Source: Rhodococcus sp. 14-1411-2a
GTDB lineage: Bacteria > Actinomycetota > Actinomycetes > Mycobacteriales > Mycobacteriaceae
Assembly (NCBI RefSeq): GCF_002259485.1
Contig: NZ_NPGA01000020.1
Location: 806,001 to 870,000 of the forward strand
Direction: 5' to 3'
Length of the DNA stretch: 64,000 nucleotides
Positions within the stretch are counted from its first letter, which is position 1, and each line of letters opens with the position of its first letter. The notes under the pieces are model-generated. The model had not been told where the DNA came from, searched no databases, and saw nothing but the letters and a program-made list of their open reading frames with translations. Made by a program: the position numbers and the translations under genes. This document shows, in pieces, positions 58,156 through 64,000 of this stretch.

Positions 58156-59406
58156 TTACGCGGCCTTACCGACCAGCCTGCGAATTCCCTTGCGCTTCTT
58201 CGTTTCTGCGATGGCGGTGCGCAAACCACGACGCTTGCCGGTTTCGGGATCGACGGTGAACAGGCCCGCCGGCGCGTCGGCCCACTTACGCTCGGACGCA
58301 GTCTCGGGGGCGTCGTCGCTGGTCGCCCTCAGGTACTTGTTCGGCAGCGACAGCTTCGCGATGGTTCTCCAGGACAGGAAGTACTGGTGAACGATCGAAC
58401 CGGTCGTGTACGGCAGGTCGTACTTCTCCGCCAGTTCGAGCACCCGAACCTTGATCTCCCGCAGGCGGTTGCTGGGGAGGTCCGGGAACAGGTGGTGCTC
58501 GATCTGGTAGCAGAGGTTGCCGCTCATGAACTCCATGACGGGACCGGCATTGAAGTTCGCGCTGCCGAGCATCTGACGCAGGTACCACTGCCCCTGCGTC
58601 TCACCCTCCATGTCGGACTTGGTGAACTTCTCCGCACCGTCCGGGAAGTGGCCACAGAAGATGACGGTGTTGGTCCACACGTTGCGGATCATGTTGGCGA
58701 CGATGTTCGCCGTCAACGTGCTCTTCCAGGCAGGTCCGGTCAGCAACGGGTGCAGGATGTAGTCCTTGCCGATCTGCTTGCCGACCTTCTCGAGCACCTC
58801 GCGCCGCTTCTGCTCGAATTCCTCGCGGGGCACTCGACCCTTGGCGACCTTGCCCAGTTCGAGGTGCTGAAGCGCCACTCCGTACTCGAAGAACAACTGC
58901 AGCAGCAGGTTGTAGACGGGGTTGCCGATGTTGAAGGGCTTCCACCGCTGATCGCGGGTGACGCGGAGCAGACCGTAGCCGACGTCGTCGTCCATGCCGA
59001 GCACGTTGGTGTACTTGTGGTGGATGTAGTTGTGCGTCTGCTTCCAGTGAGCCGACGGGCCCGTGTTGTCCCACTCCCACGACGTGGAGTGGATCTCCGG
59101 GTCGTTCATCCAGTCCCACTGGCCGTGCATGACGTTGTGGCCGAGCTCCATGTTCTCGATGATCTTCGCGACCCCGAGCATGGCGGTGCCGACCAGCCAA
59201 GCGGGACGCTTGCGGCTGGCGAAAAGCACGGCCCGGCCACCGATGTCGAGGGATCGCTGCAGGCGGATCGTGTTCTTGACGTACCGGGCATCGCGTTCGC
59301 CGCGGGACGCTTCGATGTCACGTCGGATGGAGTCGAGCTCGTGGCCCAACGCCTCGATGTCGGCATCGGTCAGATGCGCGTATTCTTTGACGTCCGTAAT
59401 CGCCAT
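58156..59406 (-). CDS. DesA3-like acyl-CoA desaturase, copy 1
   Basis: A 416-residue membrane fatty-acid desaturase. The three histidine boxes are H-N-V-M-H, H-N-Y-I-H-H and Q-I-E-H-H, with hydrophobic segments between. It should make a double bond in an acyl-CoA using oxygen and electrons from a reductase partner. ATG 59406 is preceded by AGGAGG with nine-base spacing. The first 45 residues (A-I-T-D-V-K-E-Y-A-H-L-T-D-A-D-I) match copy 2 closely, so the two are tandem paralogues. Its promoter carries the shared operator at 59487-59505 and a weaker overlapping copy. Confidence 0.9.
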   Translation of the reverse strand: MAITDVKEYAHLTDADIEALGHELDSIRRDIEASRGERDARYVKNTIRLQRSLDIGGRAVLFASRKRPAWLVGTAMLGVAKIIENMELGHNVMHGQWDWMNDPEIHSTSWEWDNTGPSAHWKQTHNYIHHKYTNVLGMDDDVGYGLLRVTRDQRWKPFNIGNPVYNLLLQLFFEYGVALQHLELGKVAKGRVPREEFEQKRREVLEKVGKQIGKDYILHPLLTGPAWKSTLTANIVANMIRNVWTNTVIFCGHFPDGAEKFTKSDMEGETQGQWYLRQMLGSANFNAGPVMEFMSGNLCYQIEHHLFPDLPSNRLREIKVRVLELAEKYDLPYTTGSIVHQYFLSWRTIAKLSLPNKYLRATSDDAPETASERKWADAPAGLFTVDPETGKRRGLRTAIAETKKRKGIRRLVGKAA

Positions 59407-59470: not shown

Positions 59471-59505
59471 CACCTACCGTATCGTAAGTTACGGTTCCGT
59501 AGGTT
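59471..59505. promoter_or_regulatory. Shared operator site(s) upstream of desaturase copy 1
   Basis: AGTTACG-GTTC-CGTAGGTT (59487-59505) matches two further sites in the window at 62106 and 60886 (rgTTACG-n4-CGTAGGTT). Next to it, 59471-59489 read on the minus strand gives TTACG-ATAC-GGTAGGT, a one-mismatch version of the same core. The sites lie 65-99 bases before the start codon. A TetR-type repressor is the usual reader of such sites near lipid genes, but none is identified here. Confidence 0.6.
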
Positions 59506-59529
59506 AGTGGCGGAAATCTGTGTGACGAT

Positions 59530-60831
59530 TCACAACGAAACGCGGTCACCCGAGCGACGCAGGCTCTTGGCCTGACGCTTGGCTTCCTTCTTGGCGTTGC
59601 GCAAGCTCACGCGTGCCTCTTGCATTGCCGAACGCAGACCTCGGCGCTGCCCGGTGAGCGGATCGATTCGAAGCGCGTGGACGGTAGGCGAATCGCCCTC
59701 CCGCCATCGTCGCTCGGACGACGTCTCGGGAGCGTTGTCGGACGTGGCGCGCAGCCACGAGTCGGGCAGCGACAGCTTGTGGATGGTCCGCAGCGCCAGC
59801 AAGTACTGCTTGCCGAGTGATCCTGTGGTGTACGGCAGATCGTACTTCTCGCACAGAGCGTGCACCTTCTCGGCGATCTCCGAGTACCTGTTGCTCGGCA
59901 GATCCGGGAACATGTGGTGCTCGATCTGGTAGCAGAGGTTGCCGCTCATGAAGGCCATGACCGGACCGGCCTCGAAATTGGCACTACCCAGCATCTGACG
60001 CAGGTACCACTCGGGGCGTGTCTCGGTCTCGAACTGCCCGATCGTGAACTTCTCGGCGCCGTCGGGGAAGTGACCGCAGAAGATCACCGCGTAGGCCCAC
60101 AGATTACGGACCAGGTTGGCCGTCGCGTTGGCGGTCAACGTGGACTTCCAGGCCGGGCCGGACAGTGCTGGGAACAGGACGAAATCCTTGCCGACCTGCT
60201 TGGCGATCTTGCGCGCGAAGGCTCGGCTCGCCGGAGACTTCAGCAGACCCTTCTGGTCCTCGCCGTCCAGCTGCTTCTGCGCGTCGTAATCGTGCAGCGC
60301 GATGCCCCACTCGAAGGTGGTGGCCAGCACGATGTTGGCAAGCGGCTGAACGAGATTGATCGGCTTCCACGGCTCGTCACGGGTCATGCGCAGAATGCCG
60401 AAGCCGATGTCGTCGTCCATGCCGACGATGTTGGTGTAGGTGTGGTGCGAGTAGTTGTGGGCTCGCTTCCACTGCTCGGACGGCCCGGTCTGGTCCCACT
60501 CCCACGAGGTGGAATGGATCTCCGGATCGTTCATCCAGTCCCATTGCCCGTGCATCACATTGTGACCGAGCTCCATGTTCTCGATGATCTTGGCGACACT
60601 GAGCATCGCTGTGCCGGCGATCCACGCCGGCCGATACTTGCTGCCGAGCAGCACCGCGCGGCCGCCGAGCTCCAGCAACCTCTGCAGTCTGATGGTCCGA
60701 CGGATGTATGCGGCATCGCGCTCGCCACGGCTGTCTTCGACGTCTCTACGAATCGAATCCAGTTCGCGACCGAACGCTTCCATGTCCGCTTCGCTGAGAT
60801 GAGCGAACTCTTTGATGTCGGTGATGGCCAC
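59530..60831 (-). CDS. DesA3-like acyl-CoA desaturase, copy 2
   Basis: A 433-residue paralogue of the neighbouring desaturase, with boxes H-N-V-M-H, H-N-Y-S-H-H and Q-I-E-H-H and the same N-terminal A-I-T-D-I-K-E-F-A-H-L-S-E-A-D-M. It differs by a longer basic C-terminal tail (R-N-A-K-K-E-A-K-R-Q-A-K-S-L-R-R). GTG 60831 follows GGAGG with five-base spacing; a TTG four codons upstream is also in frame. Its promoter has the shared site at 60886-60904. Two copies may act on different chain lengths or conditions. Confidence 0.9.
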   Translation of the reverse strand: MAITDIKEFAHLSEADMEAFGRELDSIRRDVEDSRGERDAAYIRRTIRLQRLLELGGRAVLLGSKYRPAWIAGTAMLSVAKIIENMELGHNVMHGQWDWMNDPEIHSTSWEWDQTGPSEQWKRAHNYSHHTYTNIVGMDDDIGFGILRMTRDEPWKPINLVQPLANIVLATTFEWGIALHDYDAQKQLDGEDQKGLLKSPASRAFARKIAKQVGKDFVLFPALSGPAWKSTLTANATANLVRNLWAYAVIFCGHFPDGAEKFTIGQFETETRPEWYLRQMLGSANFEAGPVMAFMSGNLCYQIEHHMFPDLPSNRYSEIAEKVHALCEKYDLPYTTGSLGKQYLLALRTIHKLSLPDSWLRATSDNAPETSSERRWREGDSPTVHALRIDPLTGQRRGLRSAMQEARVSLRNAKKEAKRQAKSLRRSGDRVSL

Positions 60832-60885
60832 CGGGTCCTCCAACAGTTGAGTGCAGTGCCCGAAATATCGGGTTTCGACGTGGGC

Positions 60886-60904
60886 AACCTACGTAAGCGT
60901 AACC
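60886..60904 (-). promoter_or_regulatory. Shared operator site upstream of desaturase copy 2
   Basis: On the minus strand GGTTACG-CTTA-CGTAGGTT matches the sites at 59487 and 62106. It lies 55-73 bases before the GTG. The downstream half contains TAGGTT, which would fit a -10 hexamer, so binding could block polymerase. Confidence 0.65.
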
Positions 60905-60939
60905 GAACAGTCTGAGAAGGCAGTGTGCGAGAAACAGAC

Positions 60940-62055
60940 CTACAGTTCCAATGTGCAGTCGCCCGCAGCTGCGGAAATGCACGTCTGGACGCGGTCGCCC
61001 TCGCTGTGTTCCTTACCGGAACGCAGGTCGATCACATGCCCCGAAGTCAACGGCACCACACATGTCTGGCAGATACCCATCCGGCAGCCGAACGGCATCT
61101 GAACTCCGACGTTCTCGCCTGCTTCGAGCAGACTGGTCGCGCCGTCGACAGTGGTCTTCTTGTCCGACTTGGAGAACGTGACGGTGCCGCCGGCACCGGA
61201 GGTATCGGCGCGCGAGATCTCGAACCGCTCCAGATGAAGCCGGTCCTCGATTCCCTCTCGCTTCCAGGTCTTCTCGATCTCCTCGAGCAGTGCTGCCGGT
61301 CCACACGCCCAGGTGTCGCGCGTGCGCCAGTCGGGGTAGAGCTCGTCGAGCGAGGCGAGTGCGAACTTGCCGTCCGATCGTGTCAGCTGCACATGCGAGG
61401 TGAAGTTCGGATGCGATTTCTCGAGCGCAGCGATCTCGGCCGCGAACATGACTTCGTCCTCGGTCGGTGCCGAGTGGATGTGCACGGTGTCGGGCATGTC
61501 GCCGTGGCGATCCAGGGCCCGCAGCATCGAGATGATCGGGGTGATGCCGCTACCGGCCGTGACGAACAGGATCTTGTTCGGCGGCGGCACGGGCAGCGCG
61601 AAATTGCCCTTCGGGGCGGCCAGCCGAACGATGGTCCCCTGCGGCACACCGCCGACCAGATGCGAGGAGAGGAAGCCTTCCGGCATCGCCTTGACGGTGA
61701 TGGAGATCAGCTTGTCTTCCCAGTTCGGCGGGGAGGTCAACGAGTACGACCGCCAGTGCCATCGCCCGCCGAGGTGCAACCCGATCCCAATGTACTGACC
61801 GGGCCGGTAGTCGAAATTGAAGCCCCAACCCGGCTGAATCACCAGGGTCACCGCCGTGGCGGTCTCCTTCTCCACTCGCACGATGCGGCCGCGGAGTTCG
61901 CGTGCCGACCACAGAGGATTCGCGAGATGAAGGTAGTCGTCGGGCAACAAGGGGGTGGTGATGCGGGTGAAGGCACCACGCACCATGTTCAGTCTCGGAC
62001 GCTTGGGGGCCGATACTCCGGCCGCCGGAGCCTCCAGCCACTTCTTCAGATCCAT
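60940..62055 (-). CDS. Ferredoxin-type oxidoreductase, desaturase partner
   Basis: A 371-residue three-domain reductase: FAD-binding domain (R-S-Y-S-L-T-S-P near 115), NAD(P)H domain ([10 protein letters not shown] near 180), and a C-terminal [2Fe-2S] domain with [12 protein letters not shown] and a fourth cysteine in Q-T-C-I-S. It is the electron donor for DesA3-type desaturases, like M. tuberculosis Rv3230c. I chose M-D-L-K-K-W at 62055 rather than the ATG at 62067, because the purine-rich site is too close to the first. The promoter carries the shared operator at 62106-62124. Confidence 0.9.
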
Positions 62056-62105
62056 CGGGTGTTCCATCCCCTCGATCGAGATACTGAACCGCTTGCGGTC
62101 ATCGA

Positions 62106-62124
62106 GGTTACGCTACCGTAGGTT
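62106..62124. promoter_or_regulatory. Shared operator site upstream of the oxidoreductase gene
   Basis: GGTTACG-CTAC-CGTAGGTT differs from the site of desaturase copy 2 only in the four-base centre. It lies 51-69 bases before the oxidoreductase start. Confidence 0.65.
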
Positions 62125-62179: not shown

Positions 62180-62704
62180 TCACAGCAGTTCGAGCAGAAA
62201 CGACAACTCTTGCGGGGCGTACCACGCGAGCGTGTGATCCTCGGCATCTCCCAGCACGAACTCCGCATCCTCGTCTCCCATGTCCGCGGCATCGACCGCG
62301 GCGACGGCCTTGGCGACCGCCGATTCGGCACCTTCGAGATCGACGTGGACCGACGCGACCTGATCCATCCGCAACGGCTCTTTGAGGCGGACGACGGCGT
62401 CGTCCAGATCGGGACGCAGAGTGGGATCGTCGACATCGGCCGCGATCACCGCCCTCCGATACACCACCCCTTCGGCGACTGTCCCGGTGTCGGTCTCGTC
62501 GTCGACTGCTGCGGCGATCAAGCGCAGAGAGGCCCGGGCGGCCTCCCCCATCGCCACCTCGGAGAGCTCCTCGTCGTCGCCGGACGAATAGGCCTCACGC
62601 AGTGTCGGTGTCACCGCGAAGGCCGTGCGCGAGACCGGGCTGAACTCGCCCTCCGCCGACAGCACTTTCAAGAACTCCAGCGTCGCCGGAACGTAGACAC
62701 GCAT
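62180..62704 (-). CDS. DUF6912-like protein, unknown function
   Basis: A 174-residue soluble, acidic protein beginning M-R-V-Y-V-P-A-T-L-E-F-L. It has no signal peptide, membrane helix or catalytic motif I recognise. Recurrent acidic stretches (D-D-E-T-D-T-G-T, D-V-D-D-P) and a C-terminal strand (A-W-Y-A-P-Q-E-L-S-F-L-L-E-L-L) resemble the DUF6912 proteins that follow WS/DGAT genes in mycobacteria (Rv3231c-like). The frame extends five codons upstream. It lies 11 bases behind the WS/DGAT-like gene and is probably cotranscribed. Confidence 0.6.
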   Translation of the reverse strand: MRVYVPATLEFLKVLSAEGEFSPVSRTAFAVTPTLREAYSSGDDEELSEVAMGEAARASLRLIAAAVDDETDTGTVAEGVVYRRAVIAADVDDPTLRPDLDDAVVRLKEPLRMDQVASVHVDLEGAESAVAKAVAAVDAADMGDEDAEFVLGDAEDHTLAWYAPQELSFLLELL

Positions 62705-62715
62705 GACAGAAGACC

Positions 62716-64000
62716 TCACACTCTCGATTCGTTACTCGCGTCGACCAACTCTTCCAGCGCCTCGTGCAGAAGCGCCGTGACGACGTCCACATCGGGCATG
62801 GCACCTCGATCTGCATTGAGCCCGAAGAACACGTAGCCGTCGTAGGACGTCAGCCCGATGCTCATCGCCTGGTTCTCGAACAGCGGCGACACCGGATACA
62901 TCTCGAGCATGCGCGCACCGCCCACATACAGCGGGAACTGTGGTCCGGGGGCATTGGTGACGATCAGATTGAACACCCGCTGGGACAGCCGACTACCCGC
63001 TCGCGCGCCCATCGCGTGCAGGCTCGCAGGCGCGAATCCGGAGATGCGCATCAAGGTCTGAGCGGTGACGCCGCGACTCTGCTTGGAGTGGGCCTCGGTG
63101 GCGTGCGCAATGTGCGAGAGCCGCACCACGGCATTGGATTCACCGACGGGCAGGTCGACGAGAAACGACGAGACCTCGCTGCGATCTTCCTCCGTCGCAT
63201 CGATCGGCCGATCGGCCGCATCTCCGAAACCGACCCGATCGACCGAGACGTACACCGACATGGGCACCATGGCCCGCACCGTGGAGGACGCCGTGACGGG
63301 CTCGCCTCGGGAGAGCAACCAATTGCGCAGTGCCCCGGTGACGACAGCGAGCACCACGTCGTTGATCGAGCAGCCGAACCTGTTGTGCACTCTGCGATAG
63401 TCGGCGAGCTCGGTCTTGGCCACCGCGAATCTGCGGTTTCGCGAGATCGGGGCGTTCAGCGGACTCGACGGCGCGCTCTGGGTCGCGGTGCGCAGCACGG
63501 CCGCGACCTTCGCTGCGGCCCGCAGGGCCCCACCCGCGACACCGGCAGCGCCGTGGACCGCGCCGCGCAGTGCCTCGACGCTCTCCCCCGGACGTACCAC
63601 CAAGTCGGTGAGAGCATCGATGACCAACGCCGAATCCTTGGGCTCGCGCGCGGGCATCCAGAGTTCCTCGGCCATCGGCGGCGGATTCTTGCTGGCATCG
63701 AGTATGACCTGACCGATGTCGAGCGCGTGTTCACCGTCGACCAGCGCCGAGTGAGACTTGGTGAAGACGGCGAAACGATTCTTCGACAACCCCTCGACCA
63801 GGTACATCTCCCACAGCGGACGGGTGCGATCGAGTGGGCGCGAGGTCAGCCGCGCGATCAGATCGTGCAGCTGATCGTCCGAACCCGGCTTGGGTAGTGC
63901 CGAACGGCGGATGTGGTAGGTGATGTCGAAATCCGCGTCGTCGACCCACACCGGCCTGGCCAGCCCGAAGGCGACCTCACGCACCTTCTGCCGGTACCGG
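62716..64000 (-). CDS. WS/DGAT-like acyltransferase family protein, 5' end outside window
   Basis: The last 428 or more residues of a wax-ester synthase/diacylglycerol acyltransferase-like protein; the frame runs off the window at 64000 and the GTG at 63984 lies inside the conserved region (R-Y-R-Q-K-V-R-E-V-A-F-G-L-A-R-P-V-W), so the true start is upstream. The region where the catalytic HHxxxDG is expected reads S-H-S-A-L-V-D-G: the second histidine, the one essential for catalysis, is Ser. Later motifs (N-D-V-V-L-A-V-V-T-G-A-L-R and T-N-A-P-G-P) are present. It may be inactive, or use other residues. Confidence 0.82.
   Translation of the reverse strand, partial: RYRQKVREVAFGLARPVWVDDADFDITYHIRRSALPKPGSDDQLHDLIARLTSRPLDRTRPLWEMYLVEGLSKNRFAVFTKSHSALVDGEHALDIGQVILDASKNPPPMAEELWMPAREPKDSALVIDALTDLVVRPGESVEALRGAVHGAAGVAGGALRAAAKVAAVLRTATQSAPSSPLNAPISRNRRFAVAKTELADYRRVHNRFGCSINDVVLAVVTGALRNWLLSRGEPVTASSTVRAMVPMSVYVSVDRVGFGDAADRPIDATEEDRSEVSSFLVDLPVGESNAVVRLSHIAHATEAHSKQSRGVTAQTLMRISGFAPASLHAMGARAGSRLSQRVFNLIVTNAPGPQFPLYVGGARMLEMYPVSPLFENQAMSIGLTSYDGYVFFGLNADRGAMPDVDVVTALLHEALEELVDASNESRV

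Follow-up and report, generated by a model that had tools for sequence, protein, structure and literature searches.

Palindromic sites at the desA3 and reductase promoters

The DNA analysed here, a 64,000-nucleotide stretch of the Rhodococcus sp. 14-1411-2a genome (contig NZ_NPGA01000020.1, positions 806,001 to 870,000; hereafter the window), carries three neighbouring genes of fatty-acid desaturation, all on the minus strand, with a repeated operator-like sequence in front of each. Two of them, desA3 copy 1 (58156..59406; PF00487, E 1.7e-29) and its paralogue desA3 copy 2 (59530..60831; PF00487, E 3.9e-27, scanned from 60828), code for desaturases, copy 1 being a membrane fatty-acid desaturase of the acyl-CoA type. 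The third (60940..62067; PF00111, PF00970, PF00175) codes for a 2Fe-2S/FAD/NAD(P) reductase of the Rv3230c type, the electron donor of DesA3. The domains bore out the gene types, two desaturases and one oxidoreductase, given in an initial annotation, which had also proposed that the three promoters share one operator reading rGTTACG-n4-CGTAGGTT. The three sites were found where they had been predicted: GGTTACGCTACCGTAGGTT ahead of the ferredoxin/NADPH reductase gene (62106..62124, plus strand), GGTTACGCTTACGTAGGTT ahead of desA3 copy 2 (60886..60904, minus strand) and AGTTACGGTTCCGTAGGTT, the main putative operator of desA3 copy 1 (59487..59505, plus strand). All match the pattern exactly. The weaker overlapping copy that had been noticed at desA3 copy 1 is CCTACCGTATCGTAA (59473..59487, minus strand), which has one mismatch and whose core lies 15 bp from the main core. 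Distances to the start codon are 38 bp for the reductase gene (ATG at 62067), 54 bp for desA3 copy 2 (GTG at 60831) and 66 and 80 bp for the two sites of desA3 copy 1 (ATG at 59406), in rough agreement with the predicted 50-100 bases. The window contains only three exact matches to TTACGn4CGTAGG, all at these promoters, and exact TACGn4CGTA cores are confined to 59490, 60890 and 62109.

The palindromic core had been recognized in the initial annotation. What had escaped notice was that the outer arms extend the symmetry, so that the full element is a palindrome of 20-24 bp, GTAACCTACGGnnCCGTAGGTTAC; the membership of desA1 and trhA and the identity of the TetR-type regulator, described below, had been missed as well. 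In this genome the element looks asymmetric (TTACG on the left, CGTAGG on the right) because its left arm is degenerate. The desA1 promoter of R. hoagii contains AACCTACGGTACCGTAGGTT, and the pooled consensus is GTAACCTACGGTACCGTAGGTTAC, in which the core columns were fixed by the collecting pattern and the outer flanks were free. A position weight matrix was too strict because the same pattern had fixed its core. At desA3, and often at the reductase gene, the sites come in pairs with cores 15 bp apart. Counting at least 15 of 16 core bases as a pair, such pairs were present at 28 of 30 loci of the genus and at 15 of 26 reductase-type loci of other genomes, and the weaker copy at desA3 copy 1 is thus one member of a conserved double operator.

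To see how confined the element is, the whole genome (5,607,543 bases, 27 contigs) was searched, with the reversed pattern as control. TTACGn4CGTAGG (that is, TTACG-n4-CGTAGGTT) gave four exact matches against two in the control, and the longer TTACGn4CGTAGGTT gave four against none. For the latter the expected number is between 0.011 (first-order Markov model from the window) and 0.062 (independent bases), and the Poisson probability of at least four matches is about 6e-10 under the Markov expectation. The search suggested in the initial annotation did not, therefore, uncover many unrelated sites of the exact form. The fourth match lies at a contig end, 37 bp ahead of the ATG of a gene for a DesA1-like acyl-ACP desaturase (desA1), PF03405 being found for an intact relative. 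When one mismatch was allowed, the reversed pattern gave more matches (94) than the pattern itself (55), so that the strict form alone carries information. The fully symmetric strict form, CCTACGGnnCCGTAGG, was absent from this genome. A fifth site, CCTACGCAACCGTAGG, is a full palindrome though it differs from the search pattern at two positions. It lies at L134:4407 (G000:C12:484406) between a trhA gene (TrhA/HlyIII, PAQR family, by NCBIfam) and a Z-prenyl diphosphate synthase gene, and may control either of them or both.

A perfect CCTACGGTCGCGTAGG was also noticed at L135:4603 (G000:C1:21602), where a dapA-like gene meets an FAD oxidoreductase-like one. It is probably a chance occurrence, as the functions of these genes are unrelated and 0.09-0.66 copies of that pattern are expected.

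Conservation of the element and its target genes

In 37 genomes of the genus TTACGn4CGTAGGTT was found 100 times, and its reversed control twice. Seventy-seven of these sites belong to the desA3-reductase locus (placed there from their coordinates, with 30 loci read), 13 to desA1 and 10 to the region between trhA and the Z-prenyl synthase gene (uppS2). The element precedes the reductase orthologue in all 30 loci read (L053-L082). The exact form at trhA/prenyl synthase was seen in 10 other genomes of the genus. In the family the strict palindrome CCTACGGnnCCGTAGG occurs at 83 sites in 54 of 161 genomes, compared with five control sites. Inspection of 70 of the 83 showed that 61 precede genes for DesA1, DesA3, the reductase or TrhA/UppS2, and the remaining nine precede genes for a PlsC-like acyltransferase (six; PF01553 tested for L330 only, the others named by sequence likeness), AcpS (two; PF01648) and a START-like protein (one; Pfam score under the cut-off). 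The reductase was also looked for in 22 further genomes, of which 21 contain the exact core at the reductase-desA3 locus, and M. gastri, M. persicum and M. attenuatum carry one 15-bp pair ahead of the reductase gene and another ahead of desA3.

At the level of the order the strict palindrome was present in 37 of 298 genomes. Outside the family 24 sites were found in 243 genomes, and 22 of them lie at lipid genes: 15 at SCD-type desaturases, five at DesA1, one at TrhA/UppS2 and one at a PlsC-like gene. One of the remaining two precedes a FadD-like gene, and the gene at the other is unclear. (The names glmU, PlsC-like except in L330, and FadD-like rest on sequence likeness in the loci of relatives; the genomes labelled g2 were read as Mycobacterium by likeness to named Mycobacterium loci, and those labelled g3 as Nocardia-like.)

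These distributions bear on the possibility that the repeats are not operators, having arisen by chance or been copied when desA3 was duplicated. Two of the three promoters in the window do belong to paralogous genes. The element, however, also precedes genes unrelated to desA3 (the reductase gene, desA1, trhA), does so in many genera and is enriched over the reversed control, which leaves this explanation a practically negligible probability. The element is real and conserved, and as an operator predicted from sequence comparison it is functionally coherent.

Several side observations were made at these loci. The PlsC-like genes with a strict palindrome upstream are those of L330, L334, L345, L347, L372 and L375 (genera g50 and g62), and a PlsC-like gene of another family (L404) has one likewise. 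In two Nocardia-like genomes (L329:1501 and L342:1571) the palindrome lies about 60 bp ahead of acpS, after the end of a fas-like gene; these two copies may form a hairpin instead of serving as operators. Upstream of the reductase gene the window contains, at 62180-63999, a DUF6912 gene and a wax-ester synthase/DGAT gene, and in several relatives, too, a DUF6912-like gene can be seen to end upstream of the reductase gene.

The linked TetR gene and rival regulators

Stretches of 12-19 kb were read around 15 sites, and a gene for a TetR protein with the helix SKPVVYEHF was found to adjoin the SCD-type desaturases. Outside the family this TetR accompanies SCD-type desaturases having the strict palindrome in 15 of 15 cases from four families, immediately downstream in 14 of them; in L415 it is 1.5 kb away with one gene between. 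In the 10 SCD-type loci that were read at length, the distance to a glmU-like gene is at most about 4 kb. In the present genome the TetR gene is at G000:C24:158038-158676 (L459:6039-6677, minus strand). Here and in a Mycobacterium-like genome it has tRNA-Gln and glmU on one side and mfd on the other, with mazG also on the mfd side (mfd-mazG were Pfam-tested in this genome), and in this genome an unrelated second TetR gene stands between it and mfd. The protein is 77% identical to its Mycobacterium-like counterpart. The helix was SKPVVYEHF in 65 of 70 reads, SKPIVYEHF in three, SKPAVYEHF in one and SKPVIYEHF in one, overlapping loci being counted separately. Membership of the TetR family is indicated by a TetR_N domain (PF00440, 58.5 bits) and agrees with the palindromic consensus operator.

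The linked TetR was labelled Rv1019 because Rv1019 adjoins glmU in M. tuberculosis and because control of mfd-mazG by Rv1019 has been reported: PMC9579286 and a title cited there describe Rv1019 as a negative regulator of mfd-mazG. The title of a 2022 paper states that Rv1019 negatively regulates Rv3230c-Rv3229c, an operon of oleic-acid synthesis (FEBS J, doi 10.1111/febs.16647; cited as ref. 62 in PMC9861118). The inference from gene order and this reported target agree: the reductase and desA3 orthologues share the site, and the TetR orthologue lies near glmU and mfd-mazG. In two of the 10 Nocardia-like genomes read, the operator stands directly ahead of the TetR gene itself. Besides, a related palindrome (e.g. 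AACCTACCGCTCGGTAGGCG in L451) was seen between glmU and tetR in the g50 loci L437, L441, L443, L450 and L451.

Since the fourth site fell before desA1, the first candidate for the regulator was MadR, the acyl-CoA-responsive TetR repressor orthologous to Rv0472c. According to PMC8872791 its repression acts on desA1/desA2, and saturated acyl-CoA with chains of at least C16 releases it; desA1 bears the element in this genome. The genome also encodes a MadR orthologue by synteny (L133:14216-14956, minus strand), the exact core lies 188 bp upstream of madR in Nocardia salmonicida (L237), and the promoter of desA3 copy 1 contains TCTGTG, the first half of the MadR motif, the second half being absent. 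The neighbours of the MadR orthologue are genes that we take to be DUF445/XRE/hbhA-like. The MadR matches, 98% to a named Rhodococcus record and 95% to R. fascians, mark the genome as Rhodococcoides/Rhodococcus fascians-like. Comparison of promoters, however, led to the rejection of MadR as the most likely regulator. The published MadR consensus TCTGTGx7GT was missing from each of the five promoters of this genome that bear the operator. Thirteen desA1 promoters from outside the mycobacteria lacked it as well, and 12 of these contain the exact palindrome core. Among nine mycobacterial desA1/desA2 promoters, by contrast, the MadR consensus was present in seven and the exact core in none. (L252, which has a short flank and one exact core, and the second copies L274-L280 are not included in these counts.) The recognition helix of MadR is identical in the Rhodococcus and the Mycobacterium-like genomes, therefore its site should not differ between them. 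Moreover, 79 of 80 stretches upstream of madR lack the exact core, mycobacterial reductase/desA3 promoters keep the palindrome, and desA3 of M. smegmatis was not raised by deletion of madR (PMC8872791). Binding of MadR to the sites is thus unlikely. The Rv1019-type TetR and MadR are only 24% identical.

In several Mycobacterium-like genomes (L323, L393, L395, L396, L398 and L400) the palindrome is nevertheless present at desA1, which indicates that the apparent hand-over of desA1 to MadR has not been complete. The desA1 upstream regions L251-L273 give the appearance of a change of regulator within the genus Mycobacterium. A second MadR-like TetR (G000:C18:164237-164899; L166:5235-6086), 58% identical to the MadR orthologue, adjoins genes reading as an alpha/beta hydrolase and a flavin monooxygenase.

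We considered it very unlikely that the sites are bound by some different DNA-binding protein, for instance FasR, a further TetR or TrcR, a two-component regulator. FasR would fit in that it senses acyl-CoA and that the palindrome occurs in two Nocardia-like acpS promoters. It was weighed through the oligonucleotide used for its crystals, in which there is a half-site-like TACGTAG and no palindrome, hence no match to the element. In all 15 desaturase cases outside the family, the gene linked to the operator codes for the Rv1019-type TetR.

A number of observations weigh against assigning the sites to the Rv1019-type TetR. TrcR chromatin immunoprecipitation sequencing reportedly covers desA3 and Rv3230c (PMC11895460), and PMC11752888 includes desA3 in a table of genes affected by the BCG TetR JTY_0672. 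The 15 linked SCD-type cases had all been chosen by their palindrome, and the strict pattern exceeds its control only threefold in genomes outside the family (24 sites against eight in 243 genomes). The exact core is missing from the reductase-desA3 locus of Millisia (L292), and seven second DesA1-type copies (L274-L280) have neither the exact core nor the MadR motif. The TetR gene is not preceded by a good operator in this genome and in most of the relatives read. Nor was an operator found near mfd here, despite the reported repression of mfd by Rv1019, so the operator does not explain that repression; the nearest mfd site, in the Mycobacterium-like locus, has seven of eight core bases, a level reached 20 times in the window. 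Finally, the co-occurrence of TetR and palindrome is weak evidence because this TetR is nearly universal in the family. The strict palindrome was found in none of 10 genomes with weak TetR matches only and in 54 of 151 others (Fisher P 0.017, with relatedness ignored and with a TetR query that covered the N-terminal part only).

Proposed regulation and comparison with known systems

Taken together, the conservation of the sites, their confinement to a small set of targets, the linkage to TetR and the title-level report on Rv1019 give good support to a TetR repressor of unsaturated-fatty-acid genes acting at these sites, and to the proposal of the initial annotation that one TetR-type regulator serves the three genes. 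The regulator is likely the Rv1019-type TetR. We consider it highly probable that the sites are operators through which one TetR repressor, the apparent Rv1019 orthologue, blocks the genes of unsaturated-fatty-acid synthesis. A TetR dimer would bind the two-fold symmetric GTAACCTACGGnnCCGTAGGTTAC and block transcription, a step for which the Rv1019 title is the available precedent. In this genome the repressed set would comprise both desA3 copies, their reductase gene, desA1 and trhA/prenyl synthase. At desA3 two dimers may bind, as suggested by the two operator centres 15 bp apart. Long-chain acyl-CoA would release the TetR, and expression of the desaturases would rise as saturated acyl-CoA accumulates. 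By analogy, a reasonable guess at the ligand is long-chain acyl-CoA, because the TetR resembles FasR: its best NCBIfam model is that of FasR, and its best solved chains, labelled as TetR family, are 6o6p (E 2e-25) and 6o6n/6o6o (E 4e-25), which we take to be FasR structures. With 105.3 bits against a cut-off of 330, the protein falls outside the FasR equivalog. FasR itself binds long acyl-CoA, according to PMC7382501.

We also lean, by a small measure, towards a wider evolutionary view. Control of unsaturated-fatty-acid synthesis by the Rv1019-type TetR may be the ancestral state in Mycobacteriales and their sister families, exerted through a nearly invariant operator, GTAACCTACGGnnCCGTAGGTTAC, on desA1, desA3 with its reductase, SCD-type desaturases, PlsC-like genes and TrhA, and many mycobacteria would later have moved desA1/desA2 to MadR. 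In this way it becomes testable whether desA1 passed from one TetR to the other, and a TetR described as a repressor of mfd-mazG would be recast mainly as a regulator of lipid unsaturation. The literature found gives regulators for fas, fasII and desA1/desA2 and little on desA3; the present analysis adds a concrete predicted operator and a multi-gene regulon for the control of membrane and mycolate desaturation in a large group of industrial and medical relevance.

The core pair of regulator and target (Rv1019 and Rv3230c-Rv3229c) is already published for M. tuberculosis. The operator, the wider regulon (desA1, trhA, PlsC-like genes) and the phylogenetic depth were not found in the searched literature, outside of which most subscription journals lie, and five forms of the palindrome are printed in no paper of it. 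As far as the M. tuberculosis system can be judged from the title-level report, the likeness consists in an apparently orthologous regulator (by gene order and identity) and in orthologous targets. The arrangement differs: instead of one Rv3230c-Rv3229c operon there are here three separate promoters and two desA3 copies, to which desA1 and trhA are added.

The MadR regulon, as described in PMC8872791 and PMC6398593, is similar in that a TetR protein controls desaturases including desA1. It differs in its published motif and in the protein, and in that desA3 is unaffected by deletion of madR. FasR of M. tuberculosis (PMC7382501) resembles the Rv1019-type TetR as its best model and best structural chains, and differs as an activator of fas-acpS that was studied with another DNA oligonucleotide.

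A functional parallel concerns FabR, a TetR-family repressor. Its regulon in E. coli comprises fabA, fabB and yqfA/trhA (PMC9017321). As in that system, a repressor of unsaturated-fatty-acid synthesis has TrhA, a PAQR protein, in its predicted regulon, a common site joining the unsaturated-fatty-acid genes and trhA. FabR is, however, a separate protein, the TetR described here scoring 30.7 bits against the cut-off of 151 of the FabR equivalog, and its E. coli targets are fabA/fabB, whereas here they are aerobic desaturases. The regulon thus works like FabR control without being FabR. If the assignment is correct, TrhA sits in the unsaturated-fatty-acid regulons of two different TetR systems, which would connect TrhA/PAQR proteins with unsaturated fatty acids through regulation a second time and would argue that the job of TrhA is tied to membrane unsaturation.

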